A stretch of DNA of 44,526 bases from Halanaerobium saccharolyticum (GTDB taxonomy: Bacteria; Bacillota; Halanaerobiia; Halanaerobiales; Halanaerobiaceae). Shown one piece after another: positions 39,980 through 44,526 of this stretch. The notes below the pieces were generated by a model. That model saw only the letters and a list, made by a program, of their open reading frames with translations. It was not told the origin of the DNA and did no database searches. The position numbers were made by a program, and so were the translations under genes. The stretch covers positions 1-44,526 of the forward strand of contig NZ_SNWX01000027.1 in assembly GCF_004362045.1 (NCBI RefSeq). The letters are read 5' to 3'. Position 1 is the first letter of the stretch, and each line of letters opens with the position of its first letter.

Positions 39980-41116
39980 ATGAGCGAATTAGAGAAGATT
40001 AGTTTTTATGGTCTGGGTCCATTTTATTATGAGTATCAGGGGAAAAGATTTGATGGCAGCAGCTGGGTATCTAAGAGAGCCTTATATTTATTAATGTATC
40101 TTTTACTGGCTAAGGACAGAAATGTCGCTGCCGAAGAACTTGTTGATGTTTTCTGGGAAGAATCTGATCTGAATGATGGGAAAAATAAATTATATAACAC
40201 AATTTATTTATTGAGAAAGTCACTTGCCAGAGATGGGATTCCAAAAGATATTGTTGAATCAAAAAATGGCGGATATTCGCTTAATGACGCTTATCCTGTT
40301 AAAACAGACTGGAACTATTTTGAGAAAAATGCTAAGAAAGTAATCAAAGGAGAAGAACTATCTTTGTCAGAAGTGGAGGATTTATTAAGTCTTTATCGGG
40401 GAGATTTTTTTCCTCCTTTAAGGTATGAAGGCTGGACGGAAATTCACCGGGAGGATTATAGAGAATTATATTTAAATTTAATTGAAAATTTTACAGAAAA
40501 ATTATTTCAGGAACAGCGATATCGAGATGCAGTAAATTATCTACATAAAGGAATTGAATATGATCCTTATCGGGAAAATTTTTATTTATTTTATATTAAA
40601 GCTTTAGTTAAACTTGGACGAGTAGCAGAGGCGATAAATAGTTACAAAAAATGTGAAAGAATACTAAAAGAAGAACTTGATGTTTTTCCCGGCCGGAGTC
40701 TTAAAAAAGAGTATCACCGGATTAGAATGAGTCAGGATCTAACGGAAGATATAGAAGTAGAATTAAATGAAAGCCCTATTTTAGGTTCAGGTGCTATGCT
40801 TTGCGAAATGATGGTCTTTAAAAAGATATATGAGCTTGAGATCAGACATGTAAAAAGATTAAAAAAAGAGTTTGTTCTGATGACTATTGATTTTAATAAT
40901 GTTGAACTTAAGCTCCCTTTTCAGAAAGCAGCAGATAAAATCGGAAGTATGTTAAGAACAGGAGATGTAATTTGTGTTCTCAATAAAAAAGTATACATTT
41001 TGTTGAGAGATATGAGCCTTGTTAATAGTGGAATAATTATGAACAGATTTAATAAATTTTGTGAGGAGTTAGAATTGATTAAGAAACCTTCAATTGATAT
41101 TAGAGAAGTAAATTAA
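39980..41116 (+). CDS. BTAD/SARP-type transcriptional regulator with degenerate GGDEF-like C-terminus
   Basis: This protein of about 378 residues has three parts. Residues 1-100 are an OmpR-like winged helix (KRALYLLMYLLLAKDRNVAAEELVDVFW, KNKLYNTIYLLRKSL). About 105-255 is a BTAD bundle of TPR-like helices (GWTEIHREDYRELYLNLIENF, DPYRENFYLFYIKALVKLGR). About 270-378 resembles a GGDEF fold, but the signature is lost: the position reads LNKKVYILL after LRTGDVICV. It may be a ligand or dimerisation domain. ATG 39980 fits GGGGGT upstream; TTG 39908 and ATG 39953 are also in frame. Lying just before the curlin genes and TCGAG repeats, it is the likely local regulator. That link is inference. Confidence 0.85.
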   Translation: MSELEKISFYGLGPFYYEYQGKRFDGSSWVSKRALYLLMYLLLAKDRNVAAEELVDVFWEESDLNDGKNKLYNTIYLLRKSLARDGIPKDIVESKNGGYSLNDAYPVKTDWNYFEKNAKKVIKGEELSLSEVEDLLSLYRGDFFPPLRYEGWTEIHREDYRELYLNLIENFTEKLFQEQRYRDAVNYLHKGIEYDPYRENFYLFYIKALVKLGRVAEAINSYKKCERILKEELDVFPGRSLKKEYHRIRMSQDLTEDIEVELNESPILGSGAMLCEMMVFKKIYELEIRHVKRLKKEFVLMTIDFNNVELKLPFQKAADKIGSMLRTGDVICVLNKKVYILLRDMSLVNSGIIMNRFNKFCEELELIKKPSIDIREVN

Positions 41117-41132
41117 AAAAATATTTTTTGTT

Positions 41133-41160
41133 AAAACCACCTTTAGCGGGTGGTTTTTTT
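41133..41160 (+). terminator. terminator after the regulator gene
   Basis: AAAACCACC (41133-41141) pairs with GGTGGTTTT (41149-41157) around TTTAGCG, followed by T. It separates the regulator transcript from the curlin genes. Confidence 0.88.
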
Positions 41161-41161
41161 A

Positions 41162-41181
41162 TTTTTCGAGGTTTTTTCGAG
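41162..41181 (+). promoter_or_regulatory. TCGAG direct repeats, candidate SARP-type operator
   Basis: TTTTTCGAG occurs at 41162-41170 and again at 41173-41181, so the TCGAG cores (41166 and 41177) are exactly 11 bp apart. Streptomyces SARPs bind TCGAG-type heptamers in 11-bp-spaced direct repeats next to the -10. Here TATTAT/TATAAA sequences follow at 41185-41193 and the first curlin starts at 41271. Confidence 0.55.
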
Positions 41182-41270
41182 ATTTATTATAAATTTTTAT
41201 TAGTTTTTATTGTTATTATTAACTCAGTAGAAAGGAGGTGTGAAAAAGCAAGAAGGAGGTGGAGAAGAAG

Positions 41271-41714
41271 ATGAAAATAAAGAGAATAACATTGATTATG
41301 ATTTTGTCCTTATTGCTAACAATTATCCCTACTATAAATTCCTTTGCTCAAAGCGATTATTTATTTAATCAAAGACAATTTAGCAGTTCGATAGTTTGGG
41401 AAAATGAGAATTACAGCAATGAATTTGACTCTGTATCAAATAATAATTTTGCTTCGATAATTCAAATTGGCAGCTATAATAAGGGTGAGATCTGGCAGAA
41501 AAATTTATCTTCTCAAGAAAAAAGTAATTCGGCTTCAATAGTCCAGGTTGGGAACAGTAATACTGCTTTAATTAAACAGTTTACTGTAAATGCCAGAGCT
41601 GAAATAAGACAGTATGGCCATGATAACCTGGCTACAATTGAACAATCTCAATTTAACAGTCATGTTAGAATTACACAATTTACAAATGATAGTGTATTAA
41701 GAGTTGCAAACTAA
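41271..41714 (+). CDS. CsgB-like minor curlin / nucleator
   Basis: This 147-residue protein has a signal peptide (about residues 1-26, ending NSFAQ) and, after a linker, degenerate curlin repeats from about residue 58. Units such as NFASIIQIGSYNKGEIWQ, SASIVQVGNSNTALIKQ and AEIRQYGHDNLATIEQ fit the curlin pattern x6-Q-x-G-x2-N-x5-Q; a final unit is partial. Repeats are irregular and less acidic than in the next gene, with more K/R, as in CsgB nucleators. It would be exported through CsgG and seed fibre growth. ATG 41271 follows AAGGAGGTGG (41252-41261). A second SD-like AAAGGAGGTG at 41231-41240 leads nowhere obvious. The nucleator role is inferred from order and repeat quality. Confidence 0.8.
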   Translation: MKIKRITLIMILSLLLTIIPTINSFAQSDYLFNQRQFSSSIVWENENYSNEFDSVSNNNFASIIQIGSYNKGEIWQKNLSSQEKSNSASIVQVGNSNTALIKQFTVNARAEIRQYGHDNLATIEQSQFNSHVRITQFTNDSVLRVAN

Positions 41715-41733
41715 TAAAAAATGAGTTTCAATC

Positions 41734-41765
41734 TAAAACTTAAAATTTTTCGGGAAAGTTTTAGA
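41734..41765 (+). repeat. intercistronic hairpin between the two curlin genes
   Basis: CTAAAACTT (41734-41742) and AAGTTTTAG (41757-41765) form a perfect 9-bp inverted repeat with a 14-nt loop. It lacks a T run, so an mRNA-stabilising or processing element is more likely than a terminator. Confidence 0.55.
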
Positions 41766-41800
41766 ATTAAAAATCCAAAAAATATCAAGGAGGAAAAGTA

Positions 41801-42274
41801 ATGAAAAAATTATTTATTTTGTTAGCAGTTGCTCTTTTAGTAGTGGGTATGAGTGGTATGGCAGCAGCAAATGGTTCTGATGGCAATTTTGCTAAGGTTG
41901 ATCAGGATGGTTGGGGTAATGATGCATTAGTTAATCAGACAGGTGAAGATCATATTGGTCTCATTTACCAGGACGGCTGGGGAAATGATTCAGATTTATA
42001 TCAGGATGGAGATGATAACTTTGCTATAGTTAAATCAATGGGAGAATTTAACTCTGTTTCTCAATATCAAGATGGAGATGATTTATTAGCTTCAGTTTAT
42101 CAGGACGGTTTTGCAAACAAAGCCGAACAGTATCAAACTGGAGAAGATAATAAGAGCTTTATTGGTCAACTTGGCTGCTTTAACTTTGCCCGTACAGATC
42201 AGACAGATGAAGACGATTTTGCGATAATTTCTCAAAATGGCGCTGGCAACAGTGCAACTATTAACCAGTATTAA
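41801..42274 (+). CDS. CsgA-like major curlin with six 22-residue acidic repeats
   Basis: This 157-residue protein has a signal peptide (1-23, ending GMAAA) and six tandem repeats: 29-50, 51-72, 73-94, 95-116, 117-138 and 139-157 (the last short). Repeat 2 shows the theme: LIYQDGWGNDSDLYQDGDD, matching the curlin Q-x-G-x2-N-x5-Q strand-turn-strand unit. Each turn between repeats is acidic (GED, GDD, DED). By my count the mature chain has about 25 D/E and 5 K/R, as expected of a halophile. Repeat 5 holds a single cysteine (QLGCFN). It would be secreted unfolded and polymerise as extracellular amyloid. AGGAGG precedes the ATG. Confidence 0.88.
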   Translation: MKKLFILLAVALLVVGMSGMAAANGSDGNFAKVDQDGWGNDALVNQTGEDHIGLIYQDGWGNDSDLYQDGDDNFAIVKSMGEFNSVSQYQDGDDLLASVYQDGFANKAEQYQTGEDNKSFIGQLGCFNFARTDQTDEDDFAIISQNGAGNSATINQY

Positions 42275-42303
42275 AGTCTAATAATATTTAAATTTGTAAA
42301 CAG

Positions 42304-42341
42304 GCAATCTAAAGGTTAGTTTTCCTTTAGATTGCTTCTTT
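42304..42341 (+). terminator. terminator after the major curlin gene
   Basis: GCAATCTAAAGG (42304-42315) pairs perfectly with CCTTTAGATTGC (42324-42335) around TTAGTTTT, followed by TTCTTT. Partial read-through would give less barrel/csgF/csgG mRNA than curlin mRNA. Confidence 0.85.
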
Positions 42342-42380
42342 ACTGAGTATTTTAAATTACGTATTACCAGGAGTGATAAA

Positions 42381-42947
42381 ATGGATAAAAGAATATGGAT
42401 TTTAGATTATTTTTATATACTTCTAGTTTTTTTTATGTTTTTAATTATCAATTCACCATTAATCCTGGCTCAAGAAAATGAATCACAAGTAGTGGAACAA
42501 AATTTAACAGAAAGAATAGAATTAATTGAGGCCTCTCAACAGTTTAGCAAAGCTCAAACTAACATTAATCAGACTGCTGCAGTTAGTATGTATGCCTGTA
42601 ATTACCATACAAATAATACTCAATATAAGTTGGGAGCTAAATTTGAAAAAATATTCTATGGAAATAAGAACAGTACTAATTTTTCTTATGTGATAGAGGG
42701 CATTTATCTTGATAATGAAGAAGAGGATGTAGCAGCATTTTTATCTCTGCAGACAACTTTAAGTAATAGGTTGTTTTCCCCTTATTTTGGTCTGGGAGCA
42801 GAAGTCATGAATGTAGCAGATTACCAGGTTTTTCTTGGCCTAAATCTCAGTCAGTATTTTTTTGTGGAAACAAAATTTATTAATGAGAAAGATGATTTAG
42901 AAGATGGCGATTTTTATTCAGCTTTGGGATTTAAAATTCCTTTTTAG
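42381..42947 (+). CDS. unrecognised probable outer-membrane beta-barrel of the curli locus
   Basis: This 188-residue protein has a long hydrophobic N-terminal signal (to about residue 32, ending LILAQ) and a short acidic/glutamine-rich linker (QENESQVVEQNLTERIELI). The rest alternates polar and hydrophobic residues in beta-strand fashion: YKLGAKFEKIFYG, FSYVIEGIYL, PYFGLGAEVM, QVFLGLNLSQYFFVETKFI. It ends in FYSALGFKIPF, with the C-terminal aromatic residue used as an outer-membrane insertion signal. A small (about eight-strand) barrel is likely. It lies between the curlin terminator and csgF, 15 bp from csgF. I recognise no csg family for it. A role in anchoring or protecting fibres is speculation. 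Confidence 0.72.
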   Translation: MDKRIWILDYFYILLVFFMFLIINSPLILAQENESQVVEQNLTERIELIEASQQFSKAQTNINQTAAVSMYACNYHTNNTQYKLGAKFEKIFYGNKNSTNFSYVIEGIYLDNEEEDVAAFLSLQTTLSNRLFSPYFGLGAEVMNVADYQVFLGLNLSQYFFVETKFINEKDDLEDGDFYSALGFKIPF

Positions 42948-42962
42948 AAAGGAGCATTTAAA

Positions 42963-43376
42963 ATGTTAAAAAAAATATTTATCATCTCAATTCTCTTTTT
43001 TTTCTTTGTAATTAGTTTTAGTAGTTTTGTTGGAGCTGCATCAACTACCAGCTGGAGTTTTAAGGTCCTAAATGATCCTGATGCCAGGCAGGTTGCTTAT
43101 AATTTAGCTCAGGCTCAAAATGAGATGAGTGAGTCAGAAGATCCAATAGCACAGTTTGTTTCAGGTTTAGAAGGTAGAATAATGAGTAACATCCAGAGAG
43201 ATATTGTCAATAAAATGATTGAAGATGGTTCAGCTGCGGGAGTTTATGAAACCAATACATTATTAGTAACGGTAGAAGATGATAATGGTGATGTTACTAT
43301 TTATATAACAAATAAAGAAACAGGTGAGCAAACTAAAGTTGAATACGGAACAAATGACTGGGATTTTGATTTTTAA
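42963..43376 (+). CDS. csgF: CsgF-like curli assembly factor
   Basis: This 137-residue protein has a signal peptide (about 1-25, ending VGAAS). It aligns over its mature length with CsgF: WSFKVLNDPDARQVAYNLAQAQNE resembles the N-terminal region, FVSGLEGRIMSNIQRDIV matches the helix, and TNTLLVTVEDDNGDVTIYI then TNKETGEQTKVEYG matches the C-terminal strands (E. coli: RKTGQTSTIQV). In E. coli, CsgF's N-terminus plugs the CsgG pore and positions CsgB outside. The usual NPxFGG motif of that plug is absent here (LNDPDA). AAAGGAG precedes ATG 42963. csgG follows after 41 bp. Confidence 0.82.
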   Translation: MLKKIFIISILFFFFVISFSSFVGAASTTSWSFKVLNDPDARQVAYNLAQAQNEMSESEDPIAQFVSGLEGRIMSNIQRDIVNKMIEDGSAAGVYETNTLLVTVEDDNGDVTIYITNKETGEQTKVEYGTNDWDFDF

Positions 43377-43417
43377 AATCAGGATAATATATAGTAATTT
43401 TTGGAGGAGGGAGAATT

Positions 43418-44209
43418 ATGGAGATAATGATTGCTGCTTTACTAGTTATTTCTCTCCTGGGAGGCGGATCAGGTGGAGAAGTTCCTGAGATAAACACTGT
43501 TGAAAGACCAGTCACAGAGTCAGAGCAGATAATAGAAGAAGTAATACAATCTGACGAAGAAATTATGACTTCCAGAGAAAATATCACTACTGCAACTCAA
43601 CTTTTAGCAGCCTTACCGGAGAGAGAAGAGAAATATAAAGTGGCTATTTATGATATTCAGGACAAAACTGGCCAGTATAGTGAAATTGGTTCAAAAATAG
43701 TTACTCAGGGTGCTACTGAAATGCTTATCACTGCCTTAATTAGGTCCAGACAATTTGAAATTCTTGATAGAGTAAATTTAAATAATTTTATGACTGAACA
43801 AAATCTTGTAATCCAGGAAAGAACAATAAATAATGAAGGACCAGTAATTGGTGAGATGTTGGGCTCAGATTATATAATATCTGGGGCAATCACAGAATAT
43901 CAAATAGATAAAAAAACGGGAGGATTGGGATTAGTTATTGCTGGAAAAGGTGGACAGCAGGAATTTGCAGTTGCAAGCTGTGCAGTTGACTTAAGAGTAA
44001 CTGATTCTACTACAGGTAAAGTAGTCTGGGCAAAAAGTCTTAAGAAGGAAATAGTAGGAGAAAAGATAGGTTTACAACTCTTTTCATTTATGGGTAATAA
44101 CATTGTTGAATTTGAAAGTGGTAGAGGACAGCAGGAAGTTATAAATCTGGTAGTCAGAACTTTACTGGAAGAGGCAGTTTATAAACTAAGTGACAGTCAG
44201 ATCTTGTAG
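43418..44209 (+). CDS. csgG: CsgG-type curli secretion channel
   Basis: This 263-residue protein matches CsgG/HfaB secretion channels: KVAIYDIQDKTGQY, IVTQGATEMLITALIRSRQFEILDRVNL, GSDYIISGAITEY and VDLRVTDSTTGKVVW align with E. coli CsgG. The nonameric barrel exports curlins across the outer membrane. Three oddities: the N-terminus reads LLVISLLGGGSGGE with no lipobox cysteine; an acidic ~45-residue stretch precedes the core; and between TGQ and the ATEM motif there are about four fewer residues than in E. coli, where Y51/N55/F56 form the constriction. The start codon is firm because GGAGGAGGG lies just upstream, although the second residue is an unusual glutamate for a signal peptide. Confidence 0.88.
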   Translation: MEIMIAALLVISLLGGGSGGEVPEINTVERPVTESEQIIEEVIQSDEEIMTSRENITTATQLLAALPEREEKYKVAIYDIQDKTGQYSEIGSKIVTQGATEMLITALIRSRQFEILDRVNLNNFMTEQNLVIQERTINNEGPVIGEMLGSDYIISGAITEYQIDKKTGGLGLVIAGKGGQQEFAVASCAVDLRVTDSTTGKVVWAKSLKKEIVGEKIGLQLFSFMGNNIVEFESGRGQQEVINLVVRTLLEEAVYKLSDSQIL

Positions 44210-44279: not shown

Positions 44280-44526
44280 GTGTAAGTGTTATAAAACTAA
44301 CACTTTTCCACTACAAGGCGGGGGCTGAAATTCATGGCCCCCGATCTTAAATAGTTTTACTCAGGACAGCTATCTGTTCTGTTTAGCCCCGGTTTAAATG
44401 CCGGGGTTATTTATGGTTTGCCTGGCATGAGTATTTGCTAATCAGTGAAAGTCTGATGTGGGGGTTAATAGTGCCAACCGCTAGCTGAAGACAAGGGTGT
44501 CCATCGCGAGGTGGAATCTGAAGGAA
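44280..44526 (+). mobile_element. 5' part of a group II intron (runs off the window)
   Basis: From about 44280 the DNA becomes GC-richer and is built of successive hairpins: GGGGGC/GCCCCC (44320-44342) and CCCCGG/CCGGGG (44387-44406). The stretch from 44472 to the end (GTGCCAACCGCTAGCTGAAG, then ACAAGGGTGTCCATCGCGAG and GTGGAATCTGAAGGAA) closely resembles the domain I segment I know from bacterial group II introns upstream of their reverse transcriptase. A possible 5' end is GTGTAAG at 44280, which only loosely fits the GUGYG consensus, so the boundary is uncertain. The RT ORF must lie beyond the window. The 70 bp between csgG and this point (44210-44279) hold nothing I recognise. Confidence 0.65.

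Follow-up and report, generated by a model that had tools for sequence, protein, structure and literature searches.

In Escherichia coli, the curli export channel CsgG is lipidated on its N-terminal cysteine, and a mutant of this cysteine fails to insert into the outer membrane (PMC4389571). Dueholm et al. (2012), in the passages of that study considered here, described curli in a single Firmicutes strain devoid of csgC, csgD and csgE, and reported that CsgE is also absent from many accepted curli systems (PMC3521004), and we do not require it for membership; the genus of the strain is given as Halanaerobium in the passage of a review considered alongside (PMC4551309). Tandem riboswitches for glycine and cyclic di-GMP (c-di-GMP) of class I have previously been noted near curlin-related genes (PMC9481103). 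The existence of curli in Halanaerobium is already known, and the new part is the architecture of the system, which we describe here starting from a locus at the end of a 44,526-nucleotide contig of Halanaerobium saccharolyticum (NZ_SNWX01000027.1). This stretch, analysed at its full length and referred to as the window, makes up contig C27 in its entirety; the genome (G000) measures 3.36 Mb and is assembled in 79 contigs. Judging from sequence and predicted structure, the locus probably encodes a functional curli-type system (type VIII) that secretes and assembles amyloid in a diderm Firmicute, with an additional predicted barrel protein, for which we coin the name CsgX, and with departures in regulation and gating.

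The csg block fills the final 4.2 kb of the window, with every gene on the plus strand, and comprises the following features, listed together with the element that closes the contig.

39980..41116, plus strand: SARP/BTAD-type transcriptional regulator with a Trans_reg_C winged helix, a BTAD/TPR region and a C-terminal GGDEF-like domain (Pfam BTAD, E 2.3e-22)
40790..41089, plus strand: GGDEF-like C-terminal domain of the regulator (HHalign; NKKVY in place of the GG[DE]EF motif)
41133..41157, plus strand: intrinsic terminator 3' of the regulator gene (10-pair stem and T-tail)
41166..41181, plus strand: direct repeat TCGAG-N6-TCGAG with a period of 11 bp, predicted SARP operator of the curlin promoter
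41185-41190 (TATTAT) or 41188-41193 (TATAAA): candidate -10 element of the curlin promoter
41271..41714, plus strand: curlin-repeat protein 1, Asn/Gln-rich, with a signal peptide (Pfam Curlin_rpt, E 2.6e-13, three repeats)
41801..42274, plus strand: curlin-repeat protein 2, acidic, isoelectric point about 4.1 (Pfam Curlin_rpt, E 7.5e-19, four repeats)
42381..42947, plus strand: CsgX, predicted 8-stranded outer-membrane beta-barrel with an N-terminal periplasmic helix (AlphaFold2 model and fold matches)
42963..43376, plus strand: CsgF (Pfam CsgF, E 2.6e-9)
43418..44209, plus strand: CsgG export channel that lacks a lipobox cysteine and has a shorter constriction loop (Pfam CsgG, E 8.3e-37)
44500..44526, plus strand: 5' portion of a group II intron domain, truncated where the contig ends (Rfam RF02001, group-II-D1D4-3, 27 bits)

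The six open reading frames (ORFs) of the locus are all intact, and all named families in the block pass their curated cut-offs, except for the winged helix of the regulator, which falls 0.1 bit short (Trans_reg_C, 26.1 bits against a cut-off of 26.2, E 9.4e-6). The case for a curli identity, as judged by sequence profiles, is strong. Besides the Pfam matches, profiles built from the relatives of CsgG and CsgF found in the PDB the structures of CsgG (E 2.5e-30) and CsgF (E 1.2e-4) from E. coli, and the CsgF stretch aligned to the N-terminus of mature E. coli CsgF is conserved. The structure model of the window CsgG (predicted local distance difference test score, pLDDT, 68.9; employed for the family match alone) was matched to 4uv2 by Foldseek (E 3e-15). 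A preliminary description of the window, made from the sequence alone, had proposed a curli-type locus with a BTAD/SARP regulator in a probable diderm Firmicute, and these proposals hold: hidden Markov model searches placed its CsgF and CsgG candidates in those two families rather than in unrelated ones, and the CsgG tree together with synteny places the host in Halanaerobium. Its finding of curli is real, although curli lacking csgC, csgD and csgE had been reported in this genus before, as far as the passages cited above go (PMC3521004, PMC4551309). The arrangement that it called unusual does differ from the E. coli layout but is not a one-off, the order regulator, riboswitch, curlins, CsgX, CsgF and CsgG being conserved across the class in 22 complete loci (complete for CsgF and CsgG, and drawn from Halanaerobiia and allied Bacillota-type contigs), with CsgX and CsgF swapped in some. 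Three loci per genome, riboswitches at the sibling loci, the group-wide lack of a CsgG lipobox, the strict pairing of CsgF with the barrel, and the GGDEF-like domain at the C-terminus of the regulator, all treated below, lie outside the window or beyond that earlier reading.

The N-terminus could be read in 28 CsgG proteins of Halanaerobiia and allied Bacillota metagenome-assembled genomes, and none of them carries a canonical lipobox. A single one (L045:7133-7903) has a cysteine in its hydrophobic core, fitting a relaxed pattern only, and members of the window clade display LLGGG or LFAGG where the lipobox would end. CsgG lipidation was treated as an E. coli trait and not as part of the family definition. 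In most of these CsgG proteins, the constriction loop is 4-5 residues short of its E. coli counterpart (KPYPASNF). CsgE, which the preliminary description had not seen in the window and had suggested looking for past the intron, gave no match anywhere in the genome or in any of the 59 class genomes searched, with the E. coli control recovered. Given the absence of CsgE and the shorter loop, gating must differ from that in E. coli. Two tandem CsgG genes are present in L045, L050, L053/L070 and L071, and in L045 one of the two has a constriction loop that is longer and approaches that of E. coli in length. L071 and L072, binned as Elusimicrobia and Nitriliruptoria, respectively, carry csg loci of the Halanaerobiales type and are likely misbinned.

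The barrel between the curlin genes and csgF (42381-42947) was rightly described as unrecognised: it matches no Pfam family, a PDB sequence search returned nothing usable, and no named sequence family was found. Its AlphaFold2 model (pLDDT 88.9) consists of one N-terminal helix and eight strands, with VIA Z values of 15.4 to the OprF N-domain, 14.8 to OmpW, 14.5 to PagL and 13.9 to OmpA. The final residue is F or Y in all sequences compared, a C-terminal aromatic residue being typical of substrates of the Bam machine. Fold and C-terminus together point to CsgX being an outer-membrane 8-stranded barrel. The N-terminal helix bears the conserved motif R-x2-LI-x-ASQ, in which R45, L48 and S52 are invariant, and faces the periplasm in the predicted topology. 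The CsgX profile detected 12 of the 59 class genomes, identical to the 12 that encode CsgF above the cut-off, with equal copy numbers of the two genes (3 in G000, 2 in G004 and 2 in G020), and the CsgX gene adjoins csgF/csgG in 22/22 complete loci. In the simplest interpretation, CsgX would help CsgG to enter the outer membrane or keep it there.

The genome carries three csg loci, in the window and on contigs C9 and C18, each with CsgG, CsgF and curlin genes. In the CsgG tree, the window copy falls within a Halanaerobium clade (support 100/99), the C9 copy pairs with one locus of G020, a genome from a different family, and the C18 copy with the other G020 locus; the three loci are old, separate lineages of the system. 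Contamination as the origin of the C9 and C18 loci was rejected, both matching the genome in guanine-cytosine content and tetranucleotide composition; for C9, it is further rejected by the neighbouring GGDEF-HD-GYP gene, which is 91% identical in a same-genus genome. Another view of the module comes from the same-genus genome G003, which aligns to both flanks of the C9 region at 88-89%. There, 3.8 kb containing the riboswitch, both curlins, CsgF, CsgX and CsgG are gone, and the regulator at the deletion site is a frameshifted remnant without its DNA-binding domain. The csg module was lost as a unit and the regulator then decayed, a pattern that speaks for a regulator in the service of the module.

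The sibling loci also differ in their leaders. A c-di-GMP-II aptamer lies 33 nucleotides 5' of the curlin start in the C18 locus (RF01786, above the gathering score) and another 26 nucleotides 5' of the curlin start in the C9 locus (RF03169 passed; RF01786 1.2 bits under gathering), and these two curlin leaders are the only c-di-GMP-II matches in an RF01786 search of the whole genome. Group-wide, 15 aptamers of the c-di-GMP-II or -I class in 11 loci precede curlin genes at the Rfam gathering score, most of them with the start codon 11-33 nucleotides downstream, and three sub-threshold c-di-GMP-II aptamers (E 7e-9 to 3e-7) stand one before each of curlin genes two to four of Halanaerobacter jeridensis. 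The window has no riboswitch, its curlin leader being negative in Rfam searches even at E 1, and no c-di-GMP riboswitch was found in the leaders of the window clade. A PAS-GGDEF-HD-GYP protein is encoded beside the C9 csgG, many such genes being present in these genomes. Together, the aptamers suggest a role for c-di-GMP, a biofilm signal, in curli control. Additional riboswitches lie elsewhere around these loci. Just after the C18 csgG, a c-di-GMP-I riboswitch (L042:3133-3208) directly precedes a gene (L042:3220-3738) for a 172-residue secreted protein of unrecognised family, possibly a further c-di-GMP-controlled surface protein. Tandem c-di-GMP-I aptamers are found in L061 (7850-8087) and L074 (1216-1452) before a curlin gene downstream of csgG, and a c-di-GMP-II riboswitch of H. 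kushneri (L058:5682-5767) stands ahead of an unidentified ORF, roughly 2 kb 3' of csgG.

BTAD genes are rare, with only three copies genome-wide; two of them (C27 and C9) are neighbours of csg loci, and the third is at the start of contig C16. HHalign comparison of 15 regulator C-terminal domains with canonical GGDEF domains gave a probability of 96.5 (E 9.2e-10), and Pfam GGDEF is above its cut-off in the C16 paralogue (E 1.4e-5). The catalytic GG[DE]EF motif is absent from these regulators, with NKKVY in the window copy and NSKHF and KPRYY in the paralogues. Stand-alone copies of the GGDEF-like domain adjoin csg genes in L050, L054 and L061, and the domain in the regulator may serve in sensing. 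An 11-bp period is a hallmark of SARP sites (PMC4393881, PMC10972967), and the TCGAG-N6-TCGAG repeat, which has this period, is the sole match to its pattern in the 44.5-kb window, against a chance expectation of 0.03. H. saccharolyticum and H. polyolivorans have it at the corresponding position, and H. kushneri and G006 have an imperfect version. Across 12 regulator-downstream regions, repeats peak at lag 11 (mean best match 7.5 of 9 versus 5.3-6.3 at other lags), a signal carried mostly by five related Halanaerobium regions. We therefore predict from these sequences that the TCGAG repeat is a SARP-type operator bound by the regulator. The third BTAD-GGDEF-like regulator (G000:C16:396-1556, L105) reads toward its contig end, with GCATCAT repeats of 11-bp period 3' of the gene. 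There is a weak hint that the other regulator subfamily may use ATCAT repeats. The C16 gene is possibly a neighbour of the C18 csg locus; no 16-mer is common to the two contig ends.

At the other end of the block, the group II intron noted in the preliminary description is borne out, 44500-44526 aligning with the first 27 positions of group-II-D1D4-3. The contig ends inside the intron, which marks an assembly break and is outside the curli system. An element, AAGTGTTATAAAACTAACACTTTTCCACTAC..GGGGGCTGAAATTCATGGCCCCC, lies 3' of csgG at window positions 44284-44360, with a diverged copy within the G006 curlin leader (L045), and is possibly a group II intron flank or target.

In the mechanism that we propose, the curlins would traverse the inner membrane via Sec and exit through CsgG, and CsgF would hold and nucleate them at the surface, so that cells are expected to bear amyloid fibres. 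CsgG would be a non-lipoprotein, with CsgX most likely substituting for the lipid anchor by docking, inserting or stabilising the channel in the outer membrane, its conserved N-terminal helix presumably facing the periplasm. The SARP/BTAD activator would bind the 11-bp direct repeats at the curlin promoter, with its GGDEF-like domain probably acting as a ligand sensor, and at most sibling loci the riboswitch just 5' of the curlin start codon would also read c-di-GMP directly; the window copy would have retained activator and operator without a riboswitch. The fullest version of this scheme, a lipid-independent exporter in which CsgX inserts CsgG, placed under a double c-di-GMP gate of riboswitches plus a SARP activator with a GGDEF-like sensor of c-di-GMP (or GTP) and of an origin independent of the E. 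coli CsgD route, is one that we advance tentatively, as a possibility. Several observations weigh against the scheme. The function assigned to CsgX is deduced from co-occurrence, place and modelled fold. The pairing of CsgX with the missing lipobox is fitted by a Candidatus Aerophobetes locus (L076) that encodes CsgF and a CsgG with ILAC, a possible lipobox, and has no CsgX barrel, yet this is a single case. A missing Lol system was rejected as the cause of the lost lipobox: a PF03548 search of the genome gave no match, LolA-like proteins are present (three strong PF17131 matches), and LolA has been reported in Halanaerobiales (PMC5007114), so its absence is not the reason. Folding of some riboswitch leaders for ON or OFF behaviour gave mixed results and no prediction of the sign of control. 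Finally, the signal peptide with which the window CsgG begins (MEIMIAALLVISLLGGG) is unusual.

This odd signal sequence would suit a window locus that is a decaying copy, with working curli made from the C9 and C18 loci, as would the lack of a riboswitch where G006 has, at the corresponding place of its leader, a riboswitch relic (18.5 bits), and the loss of the csg operon in the sister genome G003. However, the six window ORFs are undamaged, the CsgG N-terminus is the same in five other Halanaerobium loci of the 100/99 clade, and the TCGAG operator is kept where the leader is present, leaving decay improbable. Export or anchoring of non-amyloid cargo by the CsgG/CsgF pair, in the manner of HfaB of the Caulobacter holdfast, appears very improbable: HfaB is indeed the NCBIfam top match of the window CsgG, ahead of CsgG itself (E 2.4e-24, under its cut-off), but curlin-repeat genes and CsgF are present in every complete Halanaerobiia locus, hfa loci to our knowledge lack CsgF, and the Pfam and PDB matches are to CsgG and CsgF.

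Other explanations concern CsgX. With no part in CsgG assembly, it could instead act at the surface as an anchor or minor adhesin, tethering either the curli fibre or CsgF plus the nucleator to the outer membrane. Adhesion or anchoring at the cell surface is a frequent role of small 8-stranded barrels, and the csgX gene sits between the curlins and CsgF. Conserved residues, however, concentrate in the N-terminal helix and the strands and not in long surface loops, the loops being short and variable, which makes this role doubtful though possible. Rather unlikely, in our judgement, is that CsgX stands in for CsgE as gatekeeper or substrate adaptor, its periplasmic helix plugging or feeding CsgG. 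The universal lack of CsgE in 59/59 genomes, the exact tracking of CsgF by CsgX, and the predicted periplasmic position of the invariant helix residues agree with such a role, but CsgX is a predicted integral outer-membrane barrel and CsgE a soluble periplasmic cap; moreover, the passages of Dueholm et al. (2012) considered here report csgH, and no such barrel, for Alphaproteobacteria without csgE (PMC3521004).

If CsgX does support a lipid-free CsgG, as we propose, then a protein that in E. coli needs its lipid for the outer membrane would work without one in a class of diderm Firmicutes that always adds one barrel, and insertion of the CsgG pore would become directly testable through the lipid-free CsgG and CsgX loci. 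The riboswitches would tie c-di-GMP to curli at the mRNA level where no CsgD adjoins the locus, and such a link would then have at least two origins, each through a different mechanism. The SARP regulator, with its GGDEF-like domain and visible operator, makes experiments on such a regulator possible beyond Actinomycetota. Biofilms matter in brines and in fractured-shale wells, both common settings for Halanaerobium.

Compared with the csgBAC-csgDEFG system of E. coli, the locus shares curlin-repeat subunits, CsgF and CsgG proteins homologous by profile and predicted fold, and the N-terminal region of CsgF, but has neither CsgE nor a CsgG lipobox, has a shorter constriction loop and an extra CsgX barrel, and employs a SARP/BTAD regulator in place of CsgD, with riboswitches on the sibling curlin mRNAs. 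The closest described system, that of Dueholm et al. (2012), is from the same genus and likewise has csgA/B, csgF and csgG without csgC, csgD and csgE; its text passages, to which the comparison was confined, excluding supplements, contain no description of the barrel, the missing lipobox, the riboswitches, the regulator or multiple loci. The regulator resembles Streptomyces SARP activators, such as OtcR (PMC4393881, PMC10972967), in its winged helix and BTAD and in the 11-bp-period direct repeats near the target promoter, whereas here the target is a curli operon and the regulator has an added GGDEF-like C-terminal domain. Similarly, the glycine/c-di-GMP-I tandem (PMC9481103) shares with our loci a c-di-GMP riboswitch tied to CsgG/curlin genes, but that association concerns two of six loci, whereas here c-di-GMP-II (and I) riboswitches stand alone, directly at the curlin starts, across the class.

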